Below are positions 5,234 through 10,089 of a DNA stretch of 11,628 bases, piece by piece; the stretch's first letter is position 1; every line of letters begins with the position of its first letter. This DNA is from an uncultured Flavobacteriales bacterium (GTDB lineage Bacteria; Bacteroidota; Bacteroidia; Palsa-965), in assembly GCA_946478675.1 (NCBI GenBank), contig CAMLEF010000122.1, forward strand, positions 1-11,628, in the 5' to 3' direction. The translations under genes and the position numbers were made by a program. The notes under the pieces were generated by a model. It made no database searches, had not been told where the DNA came from, and saw only the letters and a program-made list of their open reading frames with translations.

Positions 5234-5347
5234 TTGGTTGGTAAGGTTGGTTAAGTTGGTAAGGTTGGTAAGGTTGGATGAACTTCTTTATTTACAATCC
5301 AACAAACCCAACCAACTTAACCAACCCAACCAACCCAGCCAACCCCC
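5234..5347. repeat. Imperfect long inverted repeat built from 9-base tandem units
   Basis: The left arm (5238-5279) is a run of 9-base units: TTGGTAAGG, TTGGTTAAG, TTGGTAAGG, TTGGTAAGG, then a partial TTGGAT. The right arm (5297-5347) is rich in the complementary CCAAC motif. The 14-base core GTTGGTTAAGTTGG (5246-5259) pairs perfectly with CCAACTTAACCAAC (5312-5325), and TTGGAT (5274-5279) pairs with ATCCAA (5297-5302) around a 17-base loop. The whole sits between the TPR gene's start and the PepSY gene's terminator. It has no spacers, so it is not a CRISPR array. Confidence 0.8.
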
Positions 5348-5891: not shown

Positions 5892-5930
5892 CAACATTAC
5901 AACACGATTCTGTAGAAATTCTGTTCAGAA
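5892..5930 (-). promoter_or_regulatory. PepSY-like gene promoter with response-regulator box
   Basis: On the minus strand: CAGAATTTCTACAGAAT (5923-5907), 7 bases, then TAATGTTG (5899-5892), a one-mismatch -7 box, and a 23-base leader to the ATG. The two CAGAA half-sites start 11 bases apart, the spacing bound by OmpR/PhoB-type dimers. An additional inverted half-site TTCTG lies just upstream (5930-5926). No TTG is present at -33; the upstream half-site covers that position. The box overlaps the kinase gene's stop. Confidence 0.55.
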
Positions 5931-7169
5931 ACGGACCTCGAAGCAATGCTGTTCGTTTTCGTACAGGTAAGCAGCTTCCATGCCATGCGTGACTGCGATC
6001 TGCTTGACCAGCGCAAGACCGAGGCCGGTGGATTCCGATGAAGGATTTTCTTTGTAAAAACGCTCGAAGAGTTGCTCTCCTGCTGCGCGGAGCGGCGGAC
6101 CGGAATTGCGTACGGTAAAACGATGCGGTGCGGTTTCAACGATGATTTGTCCGCCCGCCGGGCTGTGACGGATCGCATTTACGAGCAGGTTGGAAACTAA
6201 AATGTCGGCGAGCATCGGGTGAAGCTGCAGTGTGATATTTTCTTCCAGGCGAAGATCGGGCTGCAGCGTTTTCATTGCGAGCAGATCGTGGTAAAGCGCC
6301 GCTTTCGTGCGTACGAGTTCACCGAGATCGATCGTTTCCGTAACAAATTGTTTGTTCTCGATTTTCGCCAGCAGCAACAACGCGTGGTTGAGCTTCGACA
6401 GCCGTCTTGCGGAATCGTAAATACGCCGCAGCGCCTCCGCCTGTTTTTCATCGAGCCGCTCGTGCTGCAGCAGGCTTTCCGCGGTGGTCATGATCACCGA
6501 CAGCGGCGTTTGCATTTCATGCGAAGCATTTTCCGTGAACGCTTTCAGGCTGAGGTAATCGGTTTCGATCTTCTCCGTCATCTGCTCCAGCGCCGATTGC
6601 AGCTGCCGGAATTCGGAAGTTGTCGTGCGAAGAAAAAGCAGCTTCTTCCGCCGGCCGATCTCGTACTGACCGAGCTGCCGCATCATATGGAAGAACGGCT
6701 TCATGATCTTCCAGGCGGTAATGCGATTGACGACCAGCGTGATCAGCAGCAGGATCGCGATGATGATGCAGAACGAGGTGAGAATGCTTTCGACAAGATC
6801 ATCAGCTTCGAACAGCGGTTTGCCGAGTGTGACCTCGTACGTTTTTCCTTCGGCAGCCACCGGGAAAATCAGCCGGCGATAAGGAAGATATTCGCCTTCT
6901 TCTTTGCTGAACGCCGTGGTGTCGGAAAGCCGTTCCTGCACGGACGACGCTTCACGAAACTGGTCGAGATCGCCTGCATAAAAAACTACCGGCAACGATC
7001 CGTGCGCTTCCACCCAATTCAGCACGCGCTCTTTTTCAACGTAAAGATCTTCGGTGGTTTCTTCGTCCACCGCATGGCGAAGCGAGTTGTAAAAGATCCA
7101 GCCGCCGGCCGCAAAAACGAGCAACGTCGTCAGCAGGTATACGAGGCTGGTTTTCGTGAGCAGCTTCAT
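5925..7169 (-). CDS. Sensor histidine kinase
   Basis: 414 residues, inner membrane. Two spans (about 7-27 and 128-150) flank a periplasmic sensor region of roughly 100 residues. A HAMP-like linker follows (about 150-205), then the HisKA domain with phospho-acceptor His217 in FTENASHEMQTPLSVI, and the ATPase domain with N box NLLVNAIRHSP (Asn331 and Asn327), F box LFERFYK and G2 box STGLGLALVKQ (380-390). The G1 region reads VRNSGPPL, without the Asp of the usual DxGxG. A change of this type is, from memory, common in Bacteroidota kinases, so I do not read it as loss of activity. Its start overlaps the regulator's stop by four bases. The signal is unknown; the adjacent PepSY-like secreted protein could be an output or could act in the periplasm on the sensor. 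Confidence 0.95.
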   Translation of the reverse strand: MKLLTKTSLVYLLTTLLVFAAGGWIFYNSLRHAVDEETTEDLYVEKERVLNWVEAHGSLPVVFYAGDLDQFREASSVQERLSDTTAFSKEEGEYLPYRRLIFPVAAEGKTYEVTLGKPLFEADDLVESILTSFCIIIAILLLITLVVNRITAWKIMKPFFHMMRQLGQYEIGRRKKLLFLRTTTSEFRQLQSALEQMTEKIETDYLSLKAFTENASHEMQTPLSVIMTTAESLLQHERLDEKQAEALRRIYDSARRLSKLNHALLLLAKIENKQFVTETIDLGELVRTKAALYHDLLAMKTLQPDLRLEENITLQLHPMLADILVSNLLVNAIRHSPAGGQIIVETAPHRFTVRNSGPPLRAAGEQLFERFYKENPSSESTGLGLALVKQIAVTHGMEAAYLYENEQHCFEVRF

Positions 7170-7843
7170 GCCTTGCTGAATTTATAGCCCGAGCCGTACA
7201 CCGTCTGGATGTAATCCGCTGCGCCGCCTTCGATGAGCTTGCGACGAAGGTTTTTGATGTGCGAATAAATAAAGTCGAAAGAATCCGCCGTGTCGATGTC
7301 GTCACCCCAGAGATGTTCGGCGATTGCGGCTTTGGTGACGACGCGGTTGCGGTTGCTGATGAAAAACAGCAGCAGGTCGTATTCTTTTTTCGTGAGCACG
7401 ATTGTTTTTCGTCCGACCGTCACTGTCTGCGCATCCGGATCGACGCAGATCTCGTTGAAGACAATGCGGTTGTCGCCGTCGAAATTTCTTCTGCGCACGA
7501 CGGATTTAATGCGCGCGTTCAGCTCTGCAAGATGAAACGGTTTCGGCAAATAATCATCAGCGCCGAGGCCGAGACCAATGAGCTTGTCGTCGAGTGAATT
7601 TTTAGCGGAGATCACGATGATGCCCGCCTTCGCTTTGATCTTCTTGAGGTGCGCGATGATGTCGAGGCCGTTACCGTCGGGCAGCGTAATGTCGATCAGC
7701 ACGCAATCGTATTCGTACACGGTTGCTTTTTCGATCCCGGCTTCCCGCGCATCGACGGCTTCTACCACATACCCTTCGTGCTGCAGGAATTGCCGCACGC
7801 TGTTGCGCAACGCCGGCTCGTCTTCGATCAACAGGATCTTCAT
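7166..7843 (-). CDS. OmpR/PhoB-family response regulator
   Basis: 225 residues, cytosolic DNA-binding partner of the kinase encoded directly downstream. The receiver domain (1-about 120) has the acidic pair Glu7/Asp8, phospho-acceptor Asp51 in VLIDITLPDGNG, Ser79 and Lys101 in YLPKPF. The C-terminal winged helix (about 127-225) has the usual TKKEYDLLLFF, HLWGDD, SHIKNLRRKL and VYGSGYKF elements. The start is fixed by the fold: KILLIEDEP is the first beta strand. Its promoter carries the same 17-base box as the PepSY-like gene, so autoregulation is likely. Confidence 0.96.
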   Translation of the reverse strand: MKILLIEDEPALRNSVRQFLQHEGYVVEAVDAREAGIEKATVYEYDCVLIDITLPDGNGLDIIAHLKKIKAKAGIIVISAKNSLDDKLIGLGLGADDYLPKPFHLAELNARIKSVVRRRNFDGDNRIVFNEICVDPDAQTVTVGRKTIVLTKKEYDLLLFFISNRNRVVTKAAIAEHLWGDDIDTADSFDFIYSHIKNLRRKLIEGGAADYIQTVYGSGYKFSKA

Positions 7844-7847
7844 GACG

Positions 7848-7879
7848 TAAACTTAGCGCAGAATTCTGTAGAAAATCTG
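7848..7879 (-). promoter_or_regulatory. Response regulator promoter with shared 17-base box
   Basis: On the minus strand: CAGATTTTCTACAGAAT (7879-7863), 7 bases, then TAAGTTTA (7855-7848), a one-mismatch -7 box, then CGTC and the ATG at 7843. The 17-base element matches the one before the PepSY-like gene at 16 of 17 positions, in the same orientation and with the same 7-base gap to the -7 box. The box also faces the divergent gene at 8024, about 145 bases away. Confidence 0.55.
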
Positions 7880-8023
7880 CAGGATGGTTTTCGCCGGGAA
7901 AAGAAAGCGTGATGTTTTTCAGGAAAAAATTAAAAACCGGAAATCCGCGCTTTTTGTCCTTTCGTAAATAACGTCAAACACAATCACCTTCCCGGGGTTG
8001 GGAGGGTTCAAAAAACAAACGCC

Positions 8024-8443
8024 ATGAAAAAGATGATTTTCTGCGCGGCAGTAGCTGCGCTCGGGCTCTCGTTTGCCCACGCCGGAACGTTGAACACTAC
8101 GTTCGCTGAAAAACATGTTGTGCTTGCTGCTGCCGACTGGATGAAGTCGAACGACGGCACGTGGACCGGCATGCACGACGGCAAAAAAGCCTGGTACAAG
8201 CTGAATACGAAAGACGCAACGCTGTGGTGGTCTACCGACGGAAAAAACTGGAGCGCGGTGGCCGACGGCATGTGGCAGGACAAAGAAGGAAAGTGGCTGA
8301 AGATCGCCGACAAAAAACTGATGTGGTCGGCCGATGGCGGCAAGACCTGGTCGGAAGTGCCGGAGTGGAGCTGGCAGGATGCTAACGGCACCTGGTGCAA
8401 GTTCGACAAAGACTGGACGCTCTGGACGAAGAAGTCGATGTAA
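8024..8443 (+). CDS. Small secreted tryptophan-rich repeat protein
   Basis: 139 residues with a signal peptide (MKKMIFCAAVAALGLSFAHA). The mature part holds 15 Trp in about 119 residues and is made of repeats. The unit is W-(Q/x)-D-x-x-G-x-W-x-K, then L/M-W-S-x-D-G-x-x-W-S-x-V. It is visible at about 39-79, 80-112 and 113-139 (the last partial). Two Asp-box-like hairpins are present, STDGKNW (70-76) and SADGGKTW (102-109), resembling BNR repeats of beta-propellers, but the protein is too short for a propeller. I recognise no family with confidence. Carbohydrate or cell-wall binding through the aromatic surface is a guess. It stands alone, divergent from the response regulator across a 180-base gap, with a strong terminator behind it. 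No clear promoter box is visible before it. Confidence 0.82.
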   Translation: MKKMIFCAAVAALGLSFAHAGTLNTTFAEKHVVLAAADWMKSNDGTWTGMHDGKKAWYKLNTKDATLWWSTDGKNWSAVADGMWQDKEGKWLKIADKKLMWSADGGKTWSEVPEWSWQDANGTWCKFDKDWTLWTKKSM

Positions 8444-9138: not shown

Positions 9139-9146
9139 CAAAGTTA
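9139..9146 (-). promoter_or_regulatory. -7 box before the DsbA-type gene
   Basis: TAACTTTG on the minus strand is a perfect TAnnTTTG. It ends four bases before the ATG and overlaps the TAA stop of DoxX. No TTG is found about 20 bases upstream. It could drive a leaderless transcript independent of the DoxX operon, or could be chance. Confidence 0.35.
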
Positions 9147-9554
9147 CGCATTCACTTTGGCGGGAGCGGCTTTGCGGTTGTCGAGGCTGAGCGCACCCGT
9201 GCCGTTGTAAGCGAAGAACAACGCAGCTCCCATCAGCCCGATATCTTTCAGGAACATGACCATATCCATTTGCCGCATCATCGGATCGGTGATCGTCCAG
9301 AAGTTGTGCATCATGAAAGTCACGGGGACGAGGAACAGGACGAGCAGCCAGGCGCCCCATTTTGCTTTGTAGCCGAGCATGATGCTGATGGCGCCGACCA
9401 GCTCCATCACGCCGGAAAACGGAACGAGGAACGAAGCCGCCGGAACGCCTTTGGCCACTGCGAAACCGACGGATGATGCGGAGAAATGTCCGAAAGATGA
9501 CATCAGGAAAATGAGCGAGAAAAGAATTCTGCCGAGAAGTGAAACGTATTTCAT
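9144..9554 (-). CDS. DoxX family membrane protein
   Basis: 136 residues from the ATG at 9554. Beginning there gives the usual DoxX N terminus (MKYVSLLGRILFSLIFL); the frame is open 45 codons upstream but that part lies in the operator-rich gap. Four hydrophobic spans (about 7-22, 45-61, 66-83, 100-118) with the family landmarks GRI (8-10), GVMELVG (48-54), MMHNFW and FLKDIGLMGAAL. DoxX proteins act in membrane redox or thiol-stress complexes; Bacillus CatD is a relative controlled by HxlR-type regulators. It is divergent from the HxlR gene and followed by the DsbA-type gene, which supports a redox role. Confidence 0.88.
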   Translation of the reverse strand: MKYVSLLGRILFSLIFLMSSFGHFSASSVGFAVAKGVPAASFLVPFSGVMELVGAISIMLGYKAKWGAWLLVLFLVPVTFMMHNFWTITDPMMRQMDMVMFLKDIGLMGAALFFAYNGTGALSLDNRKAAPAKVNA

Positions 9555-9610
9555 ACGATTTGTTTTTGGTGAGGAATGAATGAATTGACGTTGCAAAATT
9601 CCGGTAAGCA

Positions 9611-9662
9611 GGTATACTTTTGTAACTACTATACCGGGGTATACCGGTATACTCTTGTATAG
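9611..9662. promoter_or_regulatory. Operator cluster between DoxX and HxlR genes
   Basis: A near-perfect direct repeat GGTATACTyTTGTA occurs at 9611-9624 and 9646-9659 (13 of 14 identical, 35 bases apart). Overlapping palindromes are TATACC-GG-GGTATA (9630-9643) and the perfect 14-base GTATACCGGTATAC (9639-9652), with CTATAC (9629-9634) facing GTATAG (9657-9662). The repeats contain -7-like boxes (TACTTTTG at 9615-9622, with TTG at 9591-9593). These are the probable binding sites of the adjacent HxlR regulator, controlling both directions. Confidence 0.6.
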
Positions 9663-9671
9663 TGCCTTTTC

Positions 9672-9702
9672 TTTTGATAGCCTGTACAACGTCGTAATTT
9701 TG
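9672..9702 (+). promoter_or_regulatory. Promoter of the HxlR-reductase operon
   Basis: TTTTG at 9672-9676, 18 bases, then TAATTTTG at 9695-9702, a perfect TAnnTTTG -7 box. The start of transcription would fall around 9706, about a dozen bases before the ATG at 9718. The operator cluster lies directly upstream. Confidence 0.5.
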
Positions 9703-9717
9703 TATCACAATTCAACC

Positions 9718-10089
9718 ATGATCAAAACGAAAGAACGTTGCCCGGAGGGCTTGAGTAACGGCGAATGCAAAGGACGTTTGCTGCCGGTGCAGGATGCGCT
9801 GTACGTGATCAACGGCAAATGGAAGCTGCCGATCATCATTGCGCTCGGCTTCGGCAATAAGCGTTTCAAGGAGCTGCAGCGCGAGATCAGCGGCATCACG
9901 GCGCGCATGCTGTCGAAAGAGCTGCGCGACATGGAAATGAACCAGCTCGTCAAACGCACGGTGTACGATACCACGCCGGTAACCGTCGAATACGAGCTGA
10001 CGAATTACAGCCGCAGCCTCGAGAAAGTAATTTCCGCCCTGCACGAATGGGGCACGCAACATCGCAAGCGCATCCGCGCACGTTCTTAA
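9718..10089 (+). CDS. HxlR-family transcriptional regulator
   Basis: 123 residues, a single winged-helix HxlR domain. Landmarks: ALYVINGKWKLPIIIAL (27-43), RFKELQREISGITARMLSKELRDME (49-73, recognition helix region) and the wing VKRTVYDTTPVTVEYELT (78-95), ending HEWG. Cys8 and Cys17 lie in the N-terminal arm. In Bacillus YodB, CatR and HypR an N-terminal Cys at this place senses quinones, diamide or hypochlorite, so a thiol-based sensor is plausible. The ATG at 9718 is chosen because it gives the usual N terminus and follows a good promoter; in-frame codons upstream lie in the operator region. It is followed by the FMN reductase gene after 11 bases. Confidence 0.93.
   Translation: MIKTKERCPEGLSNGECKGRLLPVQDALYVINGKWKLPIIIALGFGNKRFKELQREISGITARMLSKELRDMEMNQLVKRTVYDTTPVTVEYELTNYSRSLEKVISALHEWGTQHRKRIRARS

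Follow-up and report, generated by a model that had tools for sequence, protein, structure and literature searches.

A conserved 11-bp direct repeat at the promoters of a two-component regulator and a PepSY_like gene, a probable operator in Bacteroidota

Two promoters of an uncultured Flavobacteriales bacterium carry nearly the same 17-base box at the same distance from a -7 element. Both lie in one stretch of 11,628 nucleotides (contig CAMLEF010000122.1), referred to here as the window, whose minus strand encodes an OmpR/PhoB-type response regulator, a histidine kinase and a PepSY_like protein, in that order. One box precedes the regulator gene and the other the PepSY_like gene. The box recurs at related loci, and its half-sites co-vary between the two promoters of a genome. 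Judged from these sequence patterns, the regulator is likely to control both its own operon and the PepSY_like gene through the paired box, as an activator (probability of roughly 0.83).

The locus and its two boxes

The regulator is of the OmpR/PhoB type, with a receiver domain and a Trans_reg_C winged helix that both score above cut-off (Table 1), and its gene is presumed to be the first in the operon. The kinase gene overlaps it by 4 bases. The PepSY_like protein begins with a signal-like sequence and is presumably exported. Its predicted structure (mean pLDDT 88) shows a repeated alpha-beta pattern, and the top PDB matches to this model are Bacteroidales periplasmic proteins, several with DUF2874 in the title; beyond the five top VIA rows, the structure matches are no better than common arrangements. 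We take DUF2874 to be the older name of PF11396 (PepSY_like), which agrees with the PDB titles found here.

Table 1. Boxes, -7 elements and genes of the two-component locus in the window
Feature	Position	Strand	Details
Box at PepSY promoter, CAGAATTTCTACAGAAT	5907..5923	-	model R1 16.3 bits, E 1.5e-4 within window
Box at regulator's own promoter, CAGATTTTCTACAGAAT	7863..7879	-	model R1 24.9 bits
-7 element of PepSY promoter, TAATGTTG	5892..5899	-	7 bases downstream of box
-7 element of regulator promoter, TAAGTTTA	7848..7855	-	7 bases downstream of box
OmpR/PhoB-type response regulator gene, 225 aa	7166..7843	-	PF00072 94.6 bits, PF00486 72.9 bits
Sensor histidine kinase gene, 414 aa	5925..7169	-	PF00512, PF02518; NF052314.1 424.8 bits
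PepSY_like protein gene, 147 aa	5425..5868	-	PF11396 49.5 bits

A sequence-only reading of the window had described two 17-base boxes with half-sites 11 bases apart and a -7-like box 7 bases downstream. The boxes are present at those positions and agree in 16 of 17 bases, the two CAGA motifs of each box are offset by 11 bases, and the spacing to the -7 element is as described at both promoters. The half-site itself had been given as CAGAW; the 11-bp repeat stood, but the unit is longer, approximately CTwCAGAwTt every 11 bp in 34 aligned promoters of related regulators. When up to 3 mismatches are allowed, the only matches in the window are the two boxes, with 0.04 expected, and two matches were obtained in none of 200 shuffled windows. 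The PepSY box begins 2 bases past the last base of the kinase stop codon. A description of the box was not found in the open-access papers searched.

The boxes were also scored with R1, a sequence-only model made from the 23 regulator boxes, out of 34, whose spacing is 7 bases. The regulator box of the window is a member of this training set, and the PepSY box was found by R1 although it is absent from it. A third target within the window was sought and rejected: apart from the two boxes, no site reaches an E below 3.8 with R1, and this holds for the divergent gene at 8024 too.

Other features lie near the pair. The divergent gene (8024-8443, plus strand) encodes a W- and K-rich protein of 139 aa with a signal-like start, for which no Pfam or NCBIfam match was found. 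DoxX-like and HxlR-like genes, named by eye, occur both in the window (9144-10089) and at locus L126 (11565-12502), which indicates local synteny. Downstream of the PepSY gene, at 5236-5335, there is a 41-nt inverted repeat, 80% complementary, with TTGGTAAGG-like units.

Conservation, co-variation and promoter type

The regulator was searched in 395 Bacteroidia genomes, 33 of which contain a match at E<=1e-85. A further contig search supplied 13 loci from at least 80 listed, most of the listed loci being distant regulators of other phyla. The comparison comprises 40 regulators (the window's and L125-L163) from 38 genomes including the window's; they are 52-71% identical to the regulator of the window, and up to 250 upstream bases were read for each. 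The repeat occurs (at least 12/14) upstream of 34 of the 40, as against 2.8% of random 250-base windows from the same loci. When box and -7 element are scored together (at least 16/20, with a spacing of 7 or 8 bases only), the pattern is found at 34/40 regulator promoters, a figure that is partly circular because the pattern was fitted after these promoters were seen, and at 18/22 PepSY promoters of the same loci. The same score is reached by 2.0% of 6,000 random windows and by none of 21 paralogous OmpR-type regulators taken from 8 of the same genomes. Thus, the box is conserved at related two-component and PepSY loci and is not frequent at random, as had been anticipated.

The geometry is conserved as well. 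With offsets of 0-11 allowed and ties assigned to 7, the -7 element stands 7 or 8 bases past the box in 33/34 regulator and 17/17 PepSY promoters. Alignment on the box places information only in the two CTwCAGAwTt-like units, 11 bp apart, and in TAnnTTTg; it is near zero in the 5′ flank. By these alignments, a head-to-tail half-site repeat of about 11 bp, a feature of OmpR/PhoB dimers, appears to be present, conserved and co-varying.

A good CAGAAT box is missing from 6/40 regulators, 4/22 PepSY genes and a strong PepSY relative, L284. Nine PepSY_like loci were scored in addition. Two of these, L269 (19/20) and L278 (17/20), carry the box on contigs other than the regulator's, and the box therefore does not need linkage to the regulator. 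L272 and L273 (17/20 each) are near-regulator PepSY genes that were counted before. The remainder score 13-14/20 (L265, L266, L284), 12/20 with a doubtful start (L277) and 10/20 with just 40 upstream bases (L264). The box is absent from some PepSY_like genes.

Regulator promoters scoring 16-18/20 are also found in Chitinophaga polysaccharea (L015), Nonlabens antarcticus (L036), which has a PepSY gene close by, an Ekhidna, two Bacteroides and Dysgonomonas hofstadii. At the last three loci (L017, L018, L020), the PepSY gene after the kinase scores 16-18/20 too. The regulator promoters of L019, L021, L022 and L024 reach 11-13/20, which counts as no box. An exact box scan of viral contigs returned 14 stretches, a weak result.

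The two boxes of a genome resemble each other beyond the consensus. Half-site identity between regulator box and PepSY box is 9.58/12 within and 8.39/12 between genomes, a difference equalled in none of 20,000 permutations (24 genomes, which are related, so the sequences are not independent). Co-variation is weak for the 5 bases between the half-sites (94/20,000 permutations) and not clear for the 7 bases ahead of the -7 element (1,321/20,000). None is seen in the upstream and downstream flanks of the 24 genomes (19,251 and 17,214 of 20,000), where identity is 2.92/12 within a genome and 3.47/12 between genomes. Co-variation in the half-sites but not in the flanks is strong evidence against an effect of base composition or local copying. 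The test quoted is the third version, with a fixed register, flank controls and 24 pairs; L139 and L160, whose PepSY pick is not a box, were left out and the window was added. An earlier fixed-register version with 25 pairs gave 9.2 for a genome's own pair versus 8.04 (0/50,000 permutations). The first, consensus-free version was weak, with 5,423, 2,349 and 366 of 20,000 permutations reaching the observed value at cut-offs of 9, 10 and 11 (28, 24 and 17 pairs); its repeat finder is noisy because the register slips.

The box type largely follows the recognition helix of the regulator. Among 58 distinct regulators, all 38 with a box (at least 16/20) have His195, and the 20 without one comprise 13 with His195 and 7 with Gln195; the CAGAAT box is thus lacking in 7/7 Gln195 regulators. 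In Gln195 lineages, CC(A/C)AAT-type repeats occur at the PepSY promoter (L213), at both promoters (L214, L222) or at the regulator promoter (L226). A CC-type repeat is partly readable at PepSY in L159 and was not found in L224, and L233 has an A-rich variant. Most boxes that go with VHLRN helices have (A/T)AGA half-sites. CTAAAT repeats occur with AHVKN and AHIKN helices (L221, L232), and at these two loci the regulator box equals the PepSY box over 17 bases. The match between helix and box has exceptions: CAGAAT-like halves persist in L229 and L237 (AHVKN), and the PepSY promoter of L147 (His195) bears a CC-type repeat. His195 aligns with His193 of BasR/PmrA, which the passage cited from a docking study of Klebsiella pneumoniae PmrA places among the DNA-specific residues (PMC3973317).

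The upstream half-site had been proposed to replace the usual -33 TTG. On sequence this holds, as TTG is found in the -33 zone of 0/34 regulator and 0/18 PepSY promoters. It is weaker evidence than claimed, because the -33 motif was not identified in Flavobacterium johnsoniae RNA-seq either, according to the passage cited (PMC7366714). The transcription start computed from sequence is 7843 for the regulator, which is the A of the start codon, and 5887 for PepSY, with a leader of 19 bases. The distance from the start of the -7 element to the A of the start codon is exactly 12 bases in 18 of the 34 box-bearing regulator promoters, among them that of the window; in L141 and L144 the element has GA in place of TA. 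The regulator mRNA is probably leaderless, starting at AUG, because the -7 element stands at this distance and the sigma-A box of F. psychrophilum is placed at -12 to -5 (PMC9723704). In the sections cited, 5.5% of the examined mRNAs of F. psychrophilum are leaderless (PMC9723704) and approximately 3.7% of the leaders of B. thetaiotaomicron are shorter than 10 nt (PMC7366714).

Candidate regulon and proposed control

The genome-wide scan with R1 covered relatives, namely 16 genomes with the regulator and 16 without a match at E<=1e-85; the E-values of R1 are rough. At E<=0.01, 22 hits came from the genomes with the regulator, and 11 of these are regulator promoters (all members of the training set), leaving 11 non-regulator hits as against 3 in the genomes without it. 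The scan that the sequence-only reading had proposed thus came out in favour of the box. R1 is weak on regulator promoters with 8-base spacing outside its training, with E 0.3-0.8 in G227, G257, G314 and G200; that of G070 is not among the R1 hits listed.

The 11 other hits lie upstream of PepSY genes (2), TonB-dependent receptors or related barrels (4), a TolC-type efflux gene (1, in G402, followed by HlyD- and RND-type genes), genes for proteins with a T9SS sorting domain (3) and one further protein judged by eye to be exported. TolC-type genes also follow weaker hits in G048 (E 0.011), G375 (E 0.023) and G204 (E 0.056, gene named by eye). The T9SS sorting domain genes downstream of boxes (L195, L196, L207) encode cargo, not parts of the T9SS; their presence is worth noting beside a PorY-family kinase. 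At L203 (G154:C7:71679-71845), there are three tandem copies of box and -7 element, 66 bases apart, and the gene after them encodes a protein of 131 aa, GxxExxY-type by eye.

Direct control of the PepSY gene and the two-component operon by the regulator is strongly supported at the level of sequence because the box is conserved, is missing from the paralogues, occurs at PepSY genes on other contigs, is enriched in genomes with the regulator and co-varies between the two promoters. The direction of control is a separate matter. The regulator could bind the box as a repressor that blocks polymerase next to the -7 element, with phosphorylation releasing or strengthening the block. The second half-site stands in the spacer beside the -7 element, where it could occlude polymerase, and the passage cited describes HaeR of Porphyromonas gingivalis as activating some targets and repressing others (PMC5706477). 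Yet none of the 34 regulator and 18 PepSY promoters has a TTG left in its -33 zone, as would be expected of activator-dependent promoters, even if such motifs are hard to find in the phylum, and the tight spacing of 7-8 bases fits contact with polymerase. Repression is considered unlikely.

A box at both genes might also be a general promoter variant, such as an extended Bacteroidota -33 element, or the site of another global regulator. R1 does have background hits in 14/16 control genomes at E<=1, with three hits at E<=0.01. A general promoter element was rejected on the paralogous regulators (0/21 with the box); moreover, the box sequence largely tracks the recognition helix and co-varies between the two promoters, which makes readings of this kind highly improbable. 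The agreement of 16/17 bases inside one window would be expected if the PepSY promoter were a recent local duplicate of the regulator promoter without functional control, but the flanks of the boxes are no more alike within than between genomes, and the box is also present at two PepSY genes away from the regulator's contig. Local duplication was rejected on the unrelated flanks and is hardly credible.

Under activation by the regulator, the neighbouring kinase would phosphorylate the regulator, which would then bind as a head-to-tail dimer to the two CTwCAGAwTt half-sites, 11 bp apart, in the place of the -33 element. The bound regulator would recruit sigma-A RNA polymerase to the -7 element 7 bases downstream. 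At its own promoter the regulator would thereby raise transcription of the regulator-kinase operon (positive autoregulation), probably as a leaderless mRNA, and the separate PepSY_like promoter would be activated in the same way. In relatives, activation may extend to TolC-type efflux genes and to those of TonB receptors and further surface proteins. In the periplasm, the PepSY_like protein would most likely damp the kinase via its sensor domain, closing a feedback loop. The signal may be envelope or metal stress.

Relation to known systems and to PorY

The closest known systems are DbfQRS/BqsRS and HaeSR of P. gingivalis. BqsR binds TTAAG-N6-TTAAG, an 11-bp direct repeat too. As in DbfQRS (Vibrio cholerae) and BqsRS (Pseudomonas), a small and presumably exported PepSY-type protein appears to be coded with the regulator and the kinase; the passage cited also reports positive feedback inside the cascade, and binding of the PepSY protein DbfQ to the DbfS sensor domain, which shifts the kinase to a phosphatase (PMC12714742). 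In contrast, the protein here is of PF11396 whereas DbfQ is described there by Pfam PepSY, and the PepSY gene stands behind the kinase with its own promoter, not at the operon head. That study screened gene neighbourhoods with IPR025711; the groups given in the passage are Proteobacteria, Terrabacteria and Fusobacteria, with Bacteroidota not among them (PMC12714742).

HaeSR is, like the present system, a Bacteroidota two-component pair. In the sections cited, its region in P. gingivalis W83 includes the lipoprotein PG0717, which has four DUF2874 domains, and HaeR binds the promoters of TonB receptors and of an efflux protein in addition to its own; no such box is described in them (PMC3764172). 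The likeness is one of gene arrangement only, seen in the regulator-kinase-PepSY order of L017, L018 and L020. PmrA/BasR boxes, given as CTTAAG-N5-XTTAAT in the part cited (PMC3973317), share the 6-N5-6 head-to-tail repeat, and the window regulator aligns with BasR over its full length, but half-site letters, phylum and sigma factor all differ. A literature search on the PmrA transcription complex gave nothing useful.

The likeness to PorXY-SigP of P. gingivalis lies in the kinase. The window kinase exceeds the cut-off of 350 bits of the NCBIfam PorY-family model NF052314.1 (Table 1), as do 6/6 kinases of relatives. Among 198 genomes, 46 have a kinase above this cut-off, and in 30/30 listed loci examined (L213-L242) an OmpR-type regulator adjoins the kinase on the same strand. 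In the passages cited, P. gingivalis PorY is an orphan kinase, unlinked to its partner PorX, a CheY-PglZ protein (PMC4800418, PMC5005315); in the window, the kinase gene instead overlaps that of an OmpR-type regulator. A CAGAAT box (at least 12/14) is present at 15/30 of these loci. Twelve are shared with the first sample, 11 of them with the box, and 4 of the 18 new, more distant loci reach 12/14, L213 among them without a -7 element; the CAGAAT type therefore belongs to part of the kinase family. Several other loci have variant repeats, and some have no visible repeat.

A broader and rather doubtful reading may be offered tentatively. The PorY-like kinases of Bacteroidota could be the sensors of an ancestral self-limiting envelope circuit consisting of regulator, kinase and PepSY_like brake, in which operator and helix would have switched together several times and the regulator mRNA would be leaderless. 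P. gingivalis PorY would then have lost its regulator and been recruited to PorX and the control of secretion.

To our knowledge, few two-component operators are known in Bacteroidota. The box would be such an operator, with its promoter geometry and with natural specificity variants that could be swapped. It also provides a testable candidate regulon of PepSY, TolC-type efflux and TonB receptor genes. The orphan T9SS kinase PorY is placed in a family whose members stand beside an OmpR-type regulator at all 30 loci examined, which makes its origin testable. The findings suggest that the DbfQRS principle, whereby a PepSY protein tunes a kinase, may extend to a phylum and a domain family that the passage cited does not mention (PMC12714742).
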